Both the position numbers and the translations under genes were made by a program. 7,959 nucleotides of DNA from Candidatus Alcyoniella australis (GTDB lineage Bacteria > Lernaellota > Lernaellaia > JAVCCG01 > Alcyoniellaceae). The notes beneath the pieces were generated by a model. It saw only the letters and a list, made by a program, of their open reading frames with translations. It did not search any database and was not told the DNA's origin. Of this stretch, positions 1 through 7,959 are shown in pieces; positions within the stretch are counted from its first letter, which is position 1, and the number at the start of each line of letters is the position of its first letter. The stretch spans positions 1-7,959 of the forward strand of contig JAVCCG010000135.1 in NCBI GenBank assembly GCA_030765605.1, in the 5' to 3' direction.

Positions 1-1269
1 ATGTCCAAAGAACTTCTTGGCGAGCGGGCTACTAGAGCCACATCCGCCTACGAGATGCGCAGCCTGCTCGGGCTGCTGCCCAATCCCGATATCGTTCTGC
101 GCCGCGCGGGCAAGTCGATCACCGTCTTCCGCGAGCTGCTCACCGACGATCAGGTCAACGCCTGCGTCACCTCTCGTCGTCTGGGCGTACTGTCCTGCGA
201 GCACGAAATAGAGCCTGCCTCGGGCCACCGCGCAGATAAAAAAGCCGCCGAGATCTGCCGCACCGCCTTCGAGCACGTGGACACCGACCAGCTCGTGCGC
301 GAGATCCTCAACGCCGTGCTGTTCGGCTACGCGCCGATCGAGATGCTTTGGCGCTACGAGGCCGATGCGCTGACGCTCGCGGACCTGGTCGGCAAGCCGC
401 CCGAGTGGTTCGGCTATGACGACGACAACCGCCTGCGCTTTCTCTCGCGCGAGCAGCCGATCAACGGCGAGCTGTGCGATCCGCGCAAATTTTTCGCCGC
501 GCGCTACGAGGCCGGCTACGACAATCCCTACGGCTCGGGCATCTTGAGCAAGTGCTTCTGGCCGGTGGTCTTCAAGAAAGGCGGCCTCAGATTCTGGCTC
601 AATTTTGCCGAGAAGTTCGGCACGCCCTGGATCGAGGCCAAAGTGCCCAAGGGCACTGACGCCAACGAGCGCGAGATGCTGGCCGACCGGCTGGTGCAGA
701 TGGTCCAGGACGCCGTGGCCGTGCTCGAGGAGGGCGAGGAACTCAAGCTGCACGGCGTGGACGTCAAGGGCAGCTCGGATCTCTACGACCGGCTTGTGGC
801 CGTGATGAACGCGGCGATCAGCAAGACTGTGCTGGGGCAGACGCTGAGCACGGAGGTCGGCGATAAGGGCAGCTACGCCGCGACCAAGGGGCACCTCGAG
901 GTGCGCGACGACTACATCGGGGCCGATAAGCGGCTGGTCGCCGTGACCATGCGCAAGCCGCTGGGCCTGTTGACGAGCCTCAACGTGGCGGGAGCCACGC
1001 CGCCTGTCTGGCGCTGGTTCGAGGAGGAGGATGTCCGCAAGGACCGCGCCGAGCGCGACAGTCTGCTGCGCGAGAAGCTCGGCGTGCTGTTCACGCCCGA
1101 GTACATCGGACGCACCTACAACATCGAGCCCGAGACCGACTTTACCCTCGATCAAGTTGCGGAACAGCCCCAGGAGTCCGCGTCGATCGATGCGAACGAA
1201 TTCAGCGATGAGGCCGACGCCCAAGCCGTGGTGCGACTGGTCGGCAAGGTTAAGGACGCGGTGAAATGA
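1..1269 (+). CDS. Mu gp29-like portal protein (DUF935 family)
   Basis: This 422-residue protein is recognised as a DUF935 / Mu gp29-type portal, the dodecameric ring at the capsid vertex through which DNA is packaged and ejected. Visible family landmarks are an N-terminal LLPNPDIVL segment (residues 25-33), the LTDDQVNACVTSRR helix (47-60), FGYAPIEMLW (108-117), the NPYGSG turn (175-180), and the KKGG...NFAEKFGTPW stretch (192-210) that is typical of the family. It is somewhat shorter than Mu gp29 (about 510 aa), mainly at the C-terminus, where the last 40 or so residues are Glu/Asp-rich. The ATG is the first base of the window, so its ribosome binding site is not visible and a slightly earlier start cannot be excluded, although the N-terminus looks family-like. 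Its TGA overlaps the next start by four bases (ATGA), showing co-translation. In Mu the terminase lies upstream and a MuF-like protein downstream; here MuF is absent. Confidence 0.9.
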   Translation: MSKELLGERATRATSAYEMRSLLGLLPNPDIVLRRAGKSITVFRELLTDDQVNACVTSRRLGVLSCEHEIEPASGHRADKKAAEICRTAFEHVDTDQLVREILNAVLFGYAPIEMLWRYEADALTLADLVGKPPEWFGYDDDNRLRFLSREQPINGELCDPRKFFAARYEAGYDNPYGSGILSKCFWPVVFKKGGLRFWLNFAEKFGTPWIEAKVPKGTDANEREMLADRLVQMVQDAVAVLEEGEELKLHGVDVKGSSDLYDRLVAVMNAAISKTVLGQTLSTEVGDKGSYAATKGHLEVRDDYIGADKRLVAVTMRKPLGLLTSLNVAGATPPVWRWFEEEDVRKDRAERDSLLREKLGVLFTPEYIGRTYNIEPETDFTLDQVAEQPQESASIDANEFSDEADAQAVVRLVGKVKDAVK

Positions 1270-1714: not shown

Positions 1715-1783
1715 CACTTTGGACATTTGTCCAGACTAACTAAATCGGTTAACATTAGGCGACACTTTGGACATTTGTCCAGA
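1715..1783. repeat. Two phased 21-base repeats with dyad core
   Basis: An identical 21-base sequence occupies 1715-1735 and 1763-1783, with starts exactly 48 bases apart. Its core TGGACATTTGTCCA is a dyad with six-base arms around a two-base centre. The following 27 bases are also partly alike between the units (15 of 27 positions by eye), so this looks like an old 48-base tandem duplication whose first half has been kept unchanged. Conservation of only the dyad half suggests a protein-binding site, either for the transposase at an element end or for a regulator. No third copy was found by eye in the window. Confidence 0.8.
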
Positions 1784-1805
1784 GTGACTAATTTAGTAAA
1801 CTTCA

Positions 1806-1882: not shown

Positions 1883-1972
1883 TTACCCCTGAGCCTTCTT
1901 GGCCCGTGCTCTTCCATTGTCCTTAATTCCAGGAGGAATCGGACCCCTTTCTCTCGTCTTTTTCTCCGGAAT
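1883..1972 (-). pseudogene. Start-less short frame with RGPIPP tail
   Basis: Downstream of the 122-aa membrane protein gene, in the -1 frame relative to it, an open stretch ends at TAA (1883-1885) and encodes PEKKTRERGPIPPGIKD followed by a basic tail NGRARAKKAQG. The frame is open back into the membrane protein gene but contains no ATG, GTG or TTG. The only plausible start is ATT at 1970-1972, a rare initiator, eight bases after an AGGA (1981-1984). The RGPIPP peptide matches the two small proteins upstream, yet uses different codons, which argues that it was or is translated. It may be a tiny gene with an unusual start, a frameshifted C-terminal extension of the membrane protein, or the remains of a decayed gene. 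The start given is a guess. Confidence 0.45.
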
Positions 1973-1977
1973 ATTTT

Positions 1978-2346
1978 CTATCCTACAACGATAAAGAGAA
2001 AGAATATAAGAGCCAGGCCAATTGATAAGCTGCTTAGATAGATTGAATAATGGCCCAATTTCCCATACCTAGTGCTTCTGTAATCAATATTAACCGAATC
2101 GTCGTCCATACATTTCATCCAATGGTTTATTCTAAAATATTTACCGACCACGTTAAAAGCGATAGCGGCAATCGCTGATAAAAACGTCATTTTGGCCCAC
2201 AATGGATCTTTGATAATTTCGGCCTCGAGGAGCACCCAAACCGCAGCGATAATAGCTATGGCGAATGTGGTTATATCCTTCCTAATCTCATTTCTATCAC
2301 TGATATACTGCTCACAGACGAATTTGTATTCTTCTTCTGCAGTCAT
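1978..2346 (-). CDS. Small three-helix membrane protein, function unknown
   Basis: This 122-residue protein has a charged N-terminal helix with the pattern EYKFVCEQYISDRNEI (residues 6-21), then three predicted membrane helices at about 26-45, 51-69 and 99-121. The loop between helices 2 and 3 (70-97) is polar and contains HWMKCMDDD. The protein stops directly after the third helix. I do not recognise a named family; short membrane proteins with a leading E-Y-x-x-x-x-E-Q-Y-x-x-x-R-x-E-I helix do occur in phage and defence-associated islands, so superinfection exclusion or an abortive-infection effector is a reasonable guess but only inference. The ATG follows an AAGGA at an eight-base spacing, located inside the end of the upstream 47-aa gene, whose stop is four bases away, so the two are probably translated together. 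Base composition is AT-rich like the rest of the cassette. Confidence 0.72.
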   Translation of the reverse strand: MTAEEEYKFVCEQYISDRNEIRKDITTFAIAIIAAVWVLLEAEIIKDPLWAKMTFLSAIAAIAFNVVGKYFRINHWMKCMDDDSVNIDYRSTRYGKLGHYSIYLSSLSIGLALIFFLFIVVG

Positions 2347-2350
2347 GGAA

Positions 2351-2494
2351 TCAATCCTTTGACTTATCTGTATCGCCTACAGGATCTTTAGCCGGTGGAA
2401 TAGGACCTCGAGCTTTTTTCTTCGCTGAATCCTTGGATTTCGCTACAGCTTTTTTCGCTGAAGGTTTTTTTGTAGCAGTCTTTTTAACTGACAT
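2351..2494 (-). CDS. 47-aa Lys/Ala-rich basic protein with RGPIPP motif
   Basis: The frame is below common ORF length cut-offs but looks real. It encodes 47 residues: an N-terminal Lys/Ala/Ser-rich half like a histone-H1 or nucleoid-protein tail (TKKPSAKKAVAKSKDSAKKK, 8-27), the motif ARGPIPPAK (28-36), and an acidic/polar end (DPVGDTDKSKD). The start ATG at 2492-2494 is preceded by an AAGG about nine bases upstream. It lies 21 bases after the stop of the 60-aa gene and four bases before the membrane protein gene, so it is the middle gene of a minus-strand operon. The ARGPIPPAK nonapeptide also occurs in the 60-aa protein, with about three-quarters nucleotide identity around the motif and mostly synonymous changes, implying duplication followed by selection on the peptide. 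A nucleic-acid-binding or membrane-surface role is conceivable; no function can be assigned. Confidence 0.62.
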   Translation of the reverse strand: MSVKKTATKKPSAKKAVAKSKDSAKKKARGPIPPAKDPVGDTDKSKD

Positions 2495-2515
2495 TTTCTT
2501 CGGCCTTTTTCTGCG

Positions 2516-2698
2516 TCATCCCTCTTTTTTAGCGGGTGGAATTGGCCCTCTTGCTTTGGGCTTCGGCCTCTCTACGTCCGAGTCCTTCCTGTTGACTCTG
2601 TCTGAAAGGGGGATTCCTTTTTCAAAGGGCCTATGAGTTTCAGCGATGGTAGTATCTGAATCGGATTTTTTGGAGCGGTCGTTCTTGTCGTCTACCAT
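2516..2698 (-). CDS. 60-aa disordered protein with RGPIPP motif
   Basis: This is a 60-residue, highly charged protein without any obvious hydrophobic core, so probably disordered. The first 20 residues are Asp/Lys/Ser-rich; the C-terminus reads KPKARGPIPPAKKEG. The start is well supported: a perfect AGGAGG (2705-2710, minus strand) lies six bases before the ATG, and a good promoter lies just upstream (2725-2753). It is the first gene of the AT-rich minus-strand cassette. Its C-terminal KARGPIPPAK is shared with the next gene and in part with the frame at 1883-1972. A plus-strand open frame over the same DNA (2433-2636) is judged a shadow because it lacks a ribosome site. I do not recognise a family. 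Confidence 0.65.
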   Translation of the reverse strand: MVDDKNDRSKKSDSDTTIAETHRPFEKGIPLSDRVNRKDSDVERPKPKARGPIPPAKKEG

Positions 2699-3542: not shown

Positions 3543-4544
3543 TTACAGGTCGCTCGAAAACTGCCACACCACGCGGCCGACGATCAGCTCTTTGATATCG
3601 CGGTCGTTCAGGTCCAGCACCAGCGGGATCCAGCCCGAGGCCGGGTTGTCGGCGTTGAGCACCAGCAGGTGCCCTCTGCGCGCGGTGCGCTTGATTGTCA
3701 GGCCGTCCTCGGTGCGCACCAGGAATATCTTGGGCGTCTTGTAGCGGCCCGGGTCCAGGTCGTCGCGGTCCACGGCCACGATGTCGCCGGGCCTGATCGT
3801 GGGCAGCATCGAGGTCCCCTGCACCTTGTCCACGGTGAAGGCCACCAGGTTCTTGCGGCCCTTGATCTGGTCGCGGTGGATCACGGCCCAACCCTTGAGC
3901 GCCTCGCGCCCCACCATCTCAGCCCCGGCCGCCACGGCCCCCGCCACCAGCGGCACGCGCCGGAACTCGACCGGCTCCGCGTCCTCAACGCCGTTCGCCA
4001 TCGGCGCGGCAACCAGGGTTACGGGCAGATCGGCCAAGGCCTCGAGATCAAGAAATTCGGGATCGTCATCCCCGCTTTGCTTTGGCCCGGTGCCGAATAA
4101 AATCCACTGCGGGAAATAGTCAATTCTCTGAAATAGCCGCTCCAATAAGTCCAGAGGTGGTGTTTTTTTCTCTCGGATATACGAATCAAGCTGACTCCCT
4201 GACACCCCCATTAAGCTCGCCAGGGTCTCCGGACGCAGGCTATTATCTTCCATTATTTTTTGAAGCCGTTGCCCAATTCCAACAGGGGTTTTTTGAGATA
4301 GCAAGATTGGGTTTTTCCCATCGAGCAGCCATTTCGGATTGATGTCGGTTCGACCGCAGATCCGATCTAGCGTACTTCCCGACGGCCTGACTCGGCCCGT
4401 TTCTATCTGCGAGAGCCCTCCTGAGGTTATACCAATCAGCTTTGCAAGGGCTCTCTGAGAAAGCCCTGCTCTTTCCCGGAAAATAGAGATCCGGCCTCCG
4501 ATTTGCTTAGTGGCTAATTTATTGCTTGACTCATGCTTAGTCAC
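3543..4544 (-). CDS. Phage repressor: tandem HTH domains plus S24 self-cleaving domain
   Basis: This 333-residue cI/LexA-like repressor should hold the early promoter off and inactivate itself on RecA activation. It has an XRE-type HTH domain at 15-79 and a second one at 90-154 that aligns to the first without gaps over 65 positions (20 identities by eye). After an acidic linker comes an S24 peptidase domain: probable cleavage bond Ala206-Gly207 in VPLVAGAVAAG, nucleophile Ser245 in GTSMLPT, and general base Lys285 in GLTIKR. These spacings fit LexA-type dyads. The start is GTG at 4542-4544, the first start codon after an in-frame TAA, with AGAGGA about ten bases upstream; the GTG lies inside an operator palindrome, so autoregulation is likely. 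The HTH-encoding half is clearly more AT-rich than the S24 half, suggesting domain exchange. No clear minus-strand promoter was found. Confidence 0.92.
   Translation of the reverse strand: MTKHESSNKLATKQIGGRISIFRERAGLSQRALAKLIGITSGGLSQIETGRVRPSGSTLDRICGRTDINPKWLLDGKNPILLSQKTPVGIGQRLQKIMEDNSLRPETLASLMGVSGSQLDSYIREKKTPPLDLLERLFQRIDYFPQWILFGTGPKQSGDDDPEFLDLEALADLPVTLVAAPMANGVEDAEPVEFRRVPLVAGAVAAGAEMVGREALKGWAVIHRDQIKGRKNLVAFTVDKVQGTSMLPTIRPGDIVAVDRDDLDPGRYKTPKIFLVRTEDGLTIKRTARRGHLLVLNADNPASGWIPLVLDLNDRDIKELIVGRVVWQFSSDL
4506..4518. promoter_or_regulatory. Putative repressor operator O1
   Basis: CTTAGTGGCTAAT resembles the palindromic site at 4536-4548 (arms TTAG / CTAA around TGG). It lies within the first codons of the repressor gene and upstream of the early promoter -35 box. 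The assignment rests on similarity of three sites in a short region. Confidence 0.5.
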
Positions 4545-4554
4545 TAAGTATATT
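4526..4554 (+). promoter_or_regulatory. Early (lytic) operon promoter
   Basis: TTGACT (4526-4531) and TATATT (4549-4554) are separated by exactly 17 bases, each with five of six consensus matches. Transcription would begin near 4561 and run into the Ner-position HTH gene and on to the transposase. A perfect CTTAGT-C-ACTAAG palindrome fills most of the spacer and a related site covers the start point, so repressor binding would block RNA polymerase directly. Confidence 0.75.
4536..4548. promoter_or_regulatory. Putative repressor operator O2 (perfect palindrome)
   Basis: CTTAGTCACTAAG has perfect six-base arms around one central base. It sits between the -35 and -10 boxes of the early promoter and includes the GTG start codon of the repressor gene on the other strand. 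It is therefore well placed both to silence the early operon and to limit the repressor's own expression. Confidence 0.7.
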
Positions 4555-4558
4555 TCCT

Positions 4559-4571
4559 CTTAGTCAACTAC
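4559..4571. promoter_or_regulatory. Putative repressor operator O3
   Basis: CTTAGTCAACTAC shares CTTAGTCA with O2, with a less perfect right arm. It covers the predicted early transcript start (about 4561), 23 bases from O2, which is near two helical turns. It may bind the repressor or the small HTH protein encoded just downstream. Confidence 0.5.
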
Positions 4572-4587
4572 TTGCTCCGGGTGAAAG

Positions 4588-6391: not shown

Positions 6392-7959
6392 GTGGCTGCG
6401 GTTGATCCCCGGATCGGCATTGAGCTGGCGGACCGCATGAGCGCGGCCGCATCAGCCGCCGACCGATCGCGCATCGTCGAGGAGTACGAGGCGCGTCTGG
6501 GCATGTCGGCCGCCACGATTTACCGCATCGCTAAAGCCCACGGATGGGAGTCCGGTCGCAAACAGCGGGCCGATGCGGGCACGTATCGTTGCGACCTCAC
6601 CGACGAGCAGATCCGCACGCTGGCGGCCATGCAGGTGCGCGCCACGCGCGCCAACGGCAACCGTACCATGCCCACCTGGGTGGCGCAGCTCCACGCCTCG
6701 GACAACGGTCGCGCGCCCGCCGACGTTTCGCCGGCCACGATTAACCGCCACATGCGCCGCCTCAATATCGGCACCAAGGCCCAGCGCGCTCCTCAATCGA
6801 CCTGGGGCACACGCAGCCTTTACCCCAACCACGTACACCAGGTGGACGCCTCGATCTGTATTCAGTGGCGTTTTTCCGGCAAGGCCGAGAAGGGGCCGTC
6901 CGTGCCGCGCGACATGCGGCTTATGTACTACAAGAACAAGCCCGAGTACTTCCGCAAAGTGAAAAAGGTTCTCATCCGCTACGCCCTGGTCGATCACTGC
7001 TCGGGCGCGTTCTACTGGCGTTATTTCTACGAGTCGGGCGAGTCTCGCGAGCTGGCCGTCGAGTTCCTGCTCGAGGCCTGGGCCAACAAAGACCTTCCTA
7101 ACTATCCCTTCCACGGCGTCCCTAAATTGCTTATTTCGGACAAGGGCTCGGGATTTGAGAACCAGTTTTGCGAAAACTTGTTTGCCCGTCTGGGCGTCGA
7201 GTTCCAGGCCCACGAGGCCGGCCATCCCTGGGCCAAGGGCAGTATCGAATCCCACCACTGGCTGATCGAGCGTTTTTTCGAGAGCAGTCTCAGCCTCAAA
7301 GCCGCCGAGAACCTCGACGAACTCAACGCCCGGGCCTGGGACATGATGGCCTACCTCAACGCCTGCAAGCCGCACAGCCGCACCGGATCCCCGCGCTCCC
7401 GCTATTGGGCCTGGAAGGTTGGCGACCTGCGCGAGCTCCCACCCATCGAGGTCTGTAAGGCCCTAGCGCGCAGCGCCCCCGTGGAGCGCACAGTAAAAGG
7501 CGGCCGCAAGGTCGGCTTCAAGGGCAACGAGTACCAGCTTCGTGGCGGTACGTTCGTGGGCGACAAGGTCATGGTGGACTACTCGCCATACGAGTGGCCC
7601 CAGGCGATCCGCTGCTGGCGCATCGCGGACGGCGTCGAGCTCGCGGCCACGTTGGTAAAGACCGACGAGCACGGGTTCGACGTGCGCGGCCAGGTCTGGG
7701 GCGATCGTTCCACGCACAAGCGCCACGCCTTCAACCAGGCCGAGCGCCTACGCGCCGACCTGGACCAGGGGCGGATCGACCTCTCCGGCATCACCCCCAA
7801 GCCCCAGGCGGGCAAGGTGCCAAAGATCGCCATGCCTCAGCGCACCGGCGCGCCGGTATTCCCCGAGCAGCACGAGCCCGAGGTATTCACCGCCTACGCC
7901 GCACTGAAACGCCTGCGCGAGCTGCTCGGCCGCAACATCAGCCCAATCGAGCATCAGTG
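6392..7959 (+). CDS. Mu-type DDE transposase (3' end outside window)
   Basis: An open frame of at least 522 codons runs to the window edge. It begins at GTG 6392, six bases after a GGAG and three bases after the upstream stop. An N-terminal HTH (about residues 25-51, MSAATIYRIAKAHGW) and a second helical DNA-binding segment (70-125) precede an RNase-H-like catalytic core with Asp152 (HQVDASI), Asp250 (LISDKGSGFEN) and Glu286 (GSIESHHW). That gives D-97-D-35-E, the spacing of retroviral integrases, Tn552 and (nearly) TnsB, unlike MuA with its longer D-55-E. Residues about 365-440 (GGRKVGFKGNEYQL, then GDKVMVDY) look like the Mu transposase C-terminal beta-barrel. It should cut and join element ends for integration and replicative transposition, normally with a MuB-like ATPase encoded next. 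The last two bases, TG, would complete a stop codon if followed by A. Confidence 0.93.
   Translation, partial: MAAVDPRIGIELADRMSAAASAADRSRIVEEYEARLGMSAATIYRIAKAHGWESGRKQRADAGTYRCDLTDEQIRTLAAMQVRATRANGNRTMPTWVAQLHASDNGRAPADVSPATINRHMRRLNIGTKAQRAPQSTWGTRSLYPNHVHQVDASICIQWRFSGKAEKGPSVPRDMRLMYYKNKPEYFRKVKKVLIRYALVDHCSGAFYWRYFYESGESRELAVEFLLEAWANKDLPNYPFHGVPKLLISDKGSGFENQFCENLFARLGVEFQAHEAGHPWAKGSIESHHWLIERFFESSLSLKAAENLDELNARAWDMMAYLNACKPHSRTGSPRSRYWAWKVGDLRELPPIEVCKALARSAPVERTVKGGRKVGFKGNEYQLRGGTFVGDKVMVDYSPYEWPQAIRCWRIADGVELAATLVKTDEHGFDVRGQVWGDRSTHKRHAFNQAERLRADLDQGRIDLSGITPKPQAGKVPKIAMPQRTGAPVFPEQHEPEVFTAYAALKRLRELLGRNISPIEHQ

Follow-up and report, generated by a model that had tools for sequence, protein, structure and literature searches.

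Three tiny proteins sharing a conserved RGPIPP motif are encoded beside a predicted three-helix membrane protein in an operon of a Mu-like phage

Why should three tiny reading frames, packed into one AT-rich cassette, all encode the hexapeptide RGPIPP? The cassette lies on a contig of 7,959 bp (C135) that belongs to a 4.29-Mb genome; we analyzed this contig whole and call it the window. Its gene content is that of a Mu-like phage. The window begins with a Mu portal gene (1-1269) and a neck protein gene (1266-1706), followed by the cassette on the minus strand, a gene for a DUF4875 protein, and a CI/S24-type repressor gene. Early genes and a Mu-type transposase gene lie to the right of the repressor. 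The GC content of the cassette is 40-50%, versus 60-67% in the phage genes to its left. A second phage contig from the same metagenome, IMG/VR 3300035698_034080 (L013; 11,330 bp), shares 127-bp end stretches with the window (1-127 and 7833-7959), and we refer to it as the sister contig. The cassette occupies the site between the neck and repressor genes, and the content of the two phages differs there.

The cassette is an operon of four minus-strand genes, which encode, in order, proteins of 60, 47, 122, and 29 amino acids and are separated by gaps of 4 to 21 nt. Small protein A (60 aa; 2516-2698) ends in KPKARGPIPPAKKEG, and an AGGAGG Shine-Dalgarno sequence precedes its gene at 2705-2710. 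Small protein B (47 aa; 2351-2494) has a Lys/Ala-rich N-terminus, contains KKKARGPIPPAKDPVGDTDKSKD, and carries a net charge of +10. The third gene (1978-2346) encodes the 122-aa membrane protein, and the last (1883-1972) encodes small protein C, a 29-aa protein with a probable ATT start that contains IPEKKTRERGPIPPGIKDNGRARAKKAQG. An earlier note, made from the sequence alone, had reported RGPIPP in all three small frames, with synonymous codon differences among the copies of GPIPP, and both observations were borne out. The motif codons occupy 2534-2551 in A (copy 1), 2393-2410 in B (copy 2), and 1931-1948 in C (copy 3), all on the minus strand. The same note described the motif as a C-terminal tail. 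This term is loose, since 5 residues follow it in A, 13 in B, and 15 in C, where the motif is central. The short frame of C has no ATG, GTG, or TTG, and its start would be the ATT at 1972. An AGGA lies 8 nt upstream of this codon; in the homologue of C the codon is ATG, and the Shine-Dalgarno sequence stands at an equal distance from it. We also considered a −1 frameshift that would fuse C to the 122-aa protein; by eye there is no slippery heptamer in either phage, and given the ATG start of the homologue we rejected this idea. The proline content of the three small proteins is 11-14%, they have no apparent signal or membrane segment, and all are probably disordered. A is weakly basic (net charge +3); B and the homologue of C are very basic, with KKPA-type repeats and charges of +10 to +14.

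None of 2,000 composition-preserving shuffles yielded a 6-residue word common to all three proteins, so the sharing of RGPIPP within one genome does not come from chance or composition. Copies 1 and 2 are 79% identical in DNA over 38 bp (E = 0.004), which makes an old duplication the likely origin of this pair.

We found one homologous cassette, in the sister contig (L003/L013). Since the comparison rests on a single sister phage from the same sample, its phylogenetic depth is small. All four genes are intact there, with their order and the three motifs kept, so that a motif-bearing relative with unbroken frames, on which the earlier note had staked its proposal, does exist. The proteins of the sister are 60, 49, 122, and 41 aa long (A, B, membrane protein, and C) and 67, 65, 84, and about 65% identical to those of the window; the homologues of A, B, and C lie at L003 4643-4825, 4847-4996, and 5375-5500. 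The differences in length are due to in-frame indels only, in multiples of three. The 18 motif codons differ between the two phages by 11 synonymous changes and no nonsynonymous one (P = 2e-6 if neutral). Outside the motif, the same ORFs carry about 30 synonymous and 59 nonsynonymous changes, a pattern distinct from that of the motif at P = 2e-5. It is thus the RGPIPP peptide that is under selection, in the third frame as well, and not a DNA repeat, as the note had proposed. The dN/dS ratio, which it had suggested as a check, is 0.09 for the 122-aa membrane protein and 0.18 for the frame of C. The latter value indicates that C is most likely encoded by a genuine gene, even with its unusual start.

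The cassette had also been described as a self-contained system with a private promoter, and this description holds. A sigma70-like promoter, TTGGCA-17-TATAAG, lies at 2725-2753 on the minus strand; we read it directly from the sequence, and a promoter scan demanding T at the last −10 position does not report it. The sister has TTGATA-17-TATAGA at the same operon. About 70 nt upstream of the 60-aa gene, at 2769-2782, is a 14-bp palindrome, TTGCCAATTGGCAC (of the TTGCCAATTGGCAA type), and a second copy marks the downstream end of the cassette (1806-1819). The sister contig keeps both, at L013 3543-3556 in the same place upstream of the operon and at 2544-2557 at the downstream end; the number of matches expected by chance is 0.07 in the window and 0.07 to 0.20 across the two phages. 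In L013, the downstream copy precedes a DUF6338 module. The window lacks this module and retains the copy, which suggests an operator common to accessory modules or a module boundary; the palindrome upstream of the operon is probably one or the other. A search of Rfam gave no match.

We then considered what the 122-aa protein might be. Hydropathy analysis gave three segments, and AlphaFold2 predicted three long helices (residues ~3-41, 48-81, and 93-121) with modest confidence (pLDDT 67, from a two-sequence alignment). Pfam returned no match for this protein even at E 10, and none for A, B, or the homologues of all four proteins. NCBIfam and PHROG had no match for A, B, or the 122-aa protein; small protein C was searched through its homologue only, in Pfam. 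With the same coverage, no profile of a known toxin-antitoxin family matched. A tblastn search of phages and plasmids with the 122-aa protein found nothing, a profile of it gave weak hits only in 386 genomes (the two that we inspected were spurious), and PDB sequence and fold searches were not significant. In these searches, relatives were detectable in the sister phage only. PDC-M35B, a PADLOC model of a candidate phage-defense protein, shows a weak similarity to residues 5-81 that covers half of the profile and is not significant (E = 0.013). This model has no match at E 1e-5 in the genome of the window, and a search for the family gave one weak match in 290 genomes. PDC-M35B is the sole hint of defense in the sequence, and a weak one.

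The motif itself is similarly restricted. Degenerate DNA scans with KARGPIPP[G-start] (viral contigs) and [KR][AED]RGPIPP[AG] (viral and genome contigs) found the motif in such tiny basic ORFs only in the window and the sister contig. Most other matches look like antisense or spurious frames, and a few are in apparent genes. Among the latter, WEKERGPIPPGH occurs in apparent HNH endonucleases (L022, L024, and L034) in a different context: in these HNH endonuclease-like proteins, KERGPIPPG stands just before the HH/active-site region, in unrelated surroundings. A class-wide pattern scan found the RGPIPP pattern in the genome of the window only, and we found no literature with "RGPIPP."

The earlier note knew of no described family with this motif, and our curated-family searches, where run, agree. 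It missed, however, an analogous architecture, that of operons containing a DUF6338 gene (PF19865). In Pseudomonas stutzeri, three Pro-rich proteins of <50 aa are encoded in a predicted operon with a DUF6338 gene (Pstu14405_12030) and are well expressed by mass spectrometry; they were thought to be species restricted, possibly de novo genes (PMC10433244). The sister contig has such a module next to its RGPIPP cassette, with a DUF6338 membrane protein gene (L013 1815-2486) followed, in overlap, by a frame for a 41-aa Pro/Lys-rich protein. We collected DUF6338 genes from plasmids, a Yersinia P2-like phage, a Vibrio plasmid, and genomes of several groups. Of 29 non-redundant loci, 20 have a Pro-rich small ORF directly downstream, compared with 29 of 315 control genes (P = 1e-12). 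The figure is sensitive to the Pro threshold and to the calling of ORFs in six frames, which is also what determines the rate of 9% among the controls. At several further DUF6338 loci, the Pro-rich small ORF falls just outside the strict threshold. Many of these small proteins carry a [KR]G[YFI]xP motif (RGYRPKP, KGYQP, RGITPKPP), and loci L110-L167, from several bacterial groups, encode between one and four tiny Pro-rich proteins, whose tails are of the [KR]GYxP and/or APPPK type. At some Pseudomonadaceae loci, two to four small proteins have a common tail. Three at L139 end in APPPK[NQ]P and three at L162 contain APPPP (each 0/2000 shuffles), two at L138 share APPPK (13/2000), and four at L152 share only APP (50/2000). 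Pfam and NCBIfam have no model for five DUF6338-linked small proteins that we tested.

The mobile settings of these genes vary. On the Vibrio plasmid, the DUF6338 gene lies between DUF3265 ORFs, which are typical of integron cassettes; DUF6338 operons probably travel on such cassettes too. In the P2-like Yersinia phage OM046626 (7530-8418), a DUF6338 gene and one for a 77-aa Pro-containing protein lie between the gpA and gpQ genes, the region in which P2 carries tin and old.

Is the RGPIPP cassette, then, a member of this group? Both kinds of operon combine a small membrane protein with tiny, disordered, Pro-rich proteins (up to four in the DUF6338 operons), closely spaced genes, and, in some DUF6338 loci, a common short motif near the C-terminus; the DUF6338 operons are found in phages, plasmids, and chromosomes. 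The cassette has three tiny Pro-rich proteins, adjacent and on the same strand, and RGPIPP is present in all three beyond what composition explains. The 122-aa protein, however, has no DUF6338 domain and is unrelated by sequence, the shared motif is RGPIPP instead of [KR]GYxP or APPPK, and the small proteins of DUF6338 operons are encoded downstream of the membrane gene, whereas two of the three in the window are upstream. The resemblance of RG-P-I-P to RG-[YFI]-x-P is suggestive only. We conclude that the cassette is not a DUF6338 operon, given its membrane protein, but probably works alike.

What might RGPIPP do? The conservation bears on this directly. If the frames were chance or decaying duplicated DNA without function, the ATT in place of ATG in copy 3 and the DNA identity of copies 1 and 2 would be readily understood. 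This reading is contradicted by the lack of nonsynonymous changes in the motif, and the in-frame indels and the low dN/dS of the membrane protein also speak against it; we consider it highly improbable. A histone H1-like or nucleoid-binding function would fit the strongly basic, KKPA-repeated character of B and the homologue of C, with Lys/Ala/Pro parts binding nucleic acid and RGPIPP serving as a rigid spacer or contact. It is the Lys-rich parts, however, that vary and RGPIPP that is invariant; A is weakly basic, and the linkage to a membrane protein is left unexplained. We judge such a function quite improbable.

Two further explanations bring in the membrane protein. In arrest peptides, RAPP and RGPP motifs are found close to the C-terminus of small ORFs that precede genes for membrane or secretion proteins, and their Arg is irreplaceable (PMC12992588). 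RGPIPP could similarly be a translation-arrest motif near the end of tiny leader ORFs, controlling the membrane-protein gene. The placement of an Arg-x-Pro motif in small ORFs beside such a gene does recall the ApdA, ApdP, and SecM class, two of the three RGPIPP ORFs are just upstream of the membrane gene, and selection falls on the motif. Yet the core is RGPI-PP, not RxPP (x = A, G, S, or P), RAPG, or RAGP, and changing the A-site Pro relieves RAPP stalling (PMC10951233). The small proteins also have no apparent localization signal. Copies 1 and 2 have a gene downstream, but copy 3 has none on its strand in the window (a DUF6338 gene follows in L013), and the RNA around the start of the 122-aa gene folds no better than shuffles (z −0.16), with no attenuator-like structure. 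Arrest, the chief rival at the level of sequence, thus seems to us very doubtful, about as much so as nucleoid binding. A toxin-antitoxin or holin-like module, in which the membrane protein is a pore or toxin that the RGPIPP proteins neutralize or trigger, would suit a small membrane protein with adjacent tiny charged proteins in a prophage, as well as the tight spacing and probably translationally coupled gene order. Three neutralizers with one motif would be unusual, however, and the lack of a toxin or antitoxin family match in the searches above counts against this explanation, which we regard as unlikely.

We tentatively favor, at somewhat less than even confidence, the view that the four genes form a lysogenic-conversion (moron) operon carried by a Mu-like prophage, with RGPIPP serving to dock the small proteins to a common partner and the operon acting at the membrane. 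From its own promoter, the operon would produce one three-helix inner-membrane protein and three tiny basic cytosolic proteins. RGPIPP would act as a short linear motif through which the three small proteins attach to the same partner. The best candidate is the co-encoded membrane protein, on its cytosolic face, where the site would be either the conserved acidic helix at the N-terminus or the loop with DDD that joins helices 2 and 3. The differing N-terminal parts would then give the three proteins separate jobs. Such a mechanism would resemble that of DUF6338 operons with their arrays of Pro-rich small proteins. Since a temperate phage carries the operon as cargo, at a site whose content varies, we infer that its likeliest role would be to alter the membrane of the lysogen or its response to incoming phage DNA, possibly in a protective way. 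More speculatively, the cassette may belong to a class of cargo, so far undescribed, that is widespread on mobile elements and pairs a small membrane protein with tiny disordered proteins, all bearing one short linear motif. It would be the first such cassette without DUF6338, and the motif might bring the array to its membrane partner, where together they would form an assembly that responds to phage or stress.

Tiny ORFs tend to be written off as noise or as "de novo" genes confined to one species. In this cassette, as in the DUF6338 operons of several groups, a membrane protein is accompanied by an array of tiny Pro-rich proteins that have a motif in common, either selected or recurrent, which would correct the published view of the P. 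stutzeri small proteins as having no counterpart elsewhere. If the docking explanation is true, it would offer a single principle open to test, in which disordered proteins dock in a multivalent manner to a membrane partner, and a candidate phage-conversion or defense module.

Several minor observations concern the phage itself. The first 123 bases of the window recur at the ends of contigs C102 and C47 of the same genome. Terminase-like genes are present on both, and over 3 kb the two are about 90% identical. Each is one version of the upstream segment for head and terminase, and the genome thus seems to hold at least two related Mu-like prophages. In the sister, the variable site (L013 3602-4888 and 5511-7090) encodes a Schlafen AlbA_2 protein with a weak match to PADLOC PDC-S50; it also has an extra, partial repressor-like ORF and genes for two unassigned proteins, each with what look like membrane segments. 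Between the neck gene and the cassette of the window (1716-1800) are two copies of a TGGACATTTGTCCA palindrome with TTAGT/ACTAA-like repeats; a search of the sister contig did not find this palindrome. Finally, TTAGTNNCTAA-like sites are repeated at 4530-4580, between the repressor and early genes, and are probably operators of the repressor.
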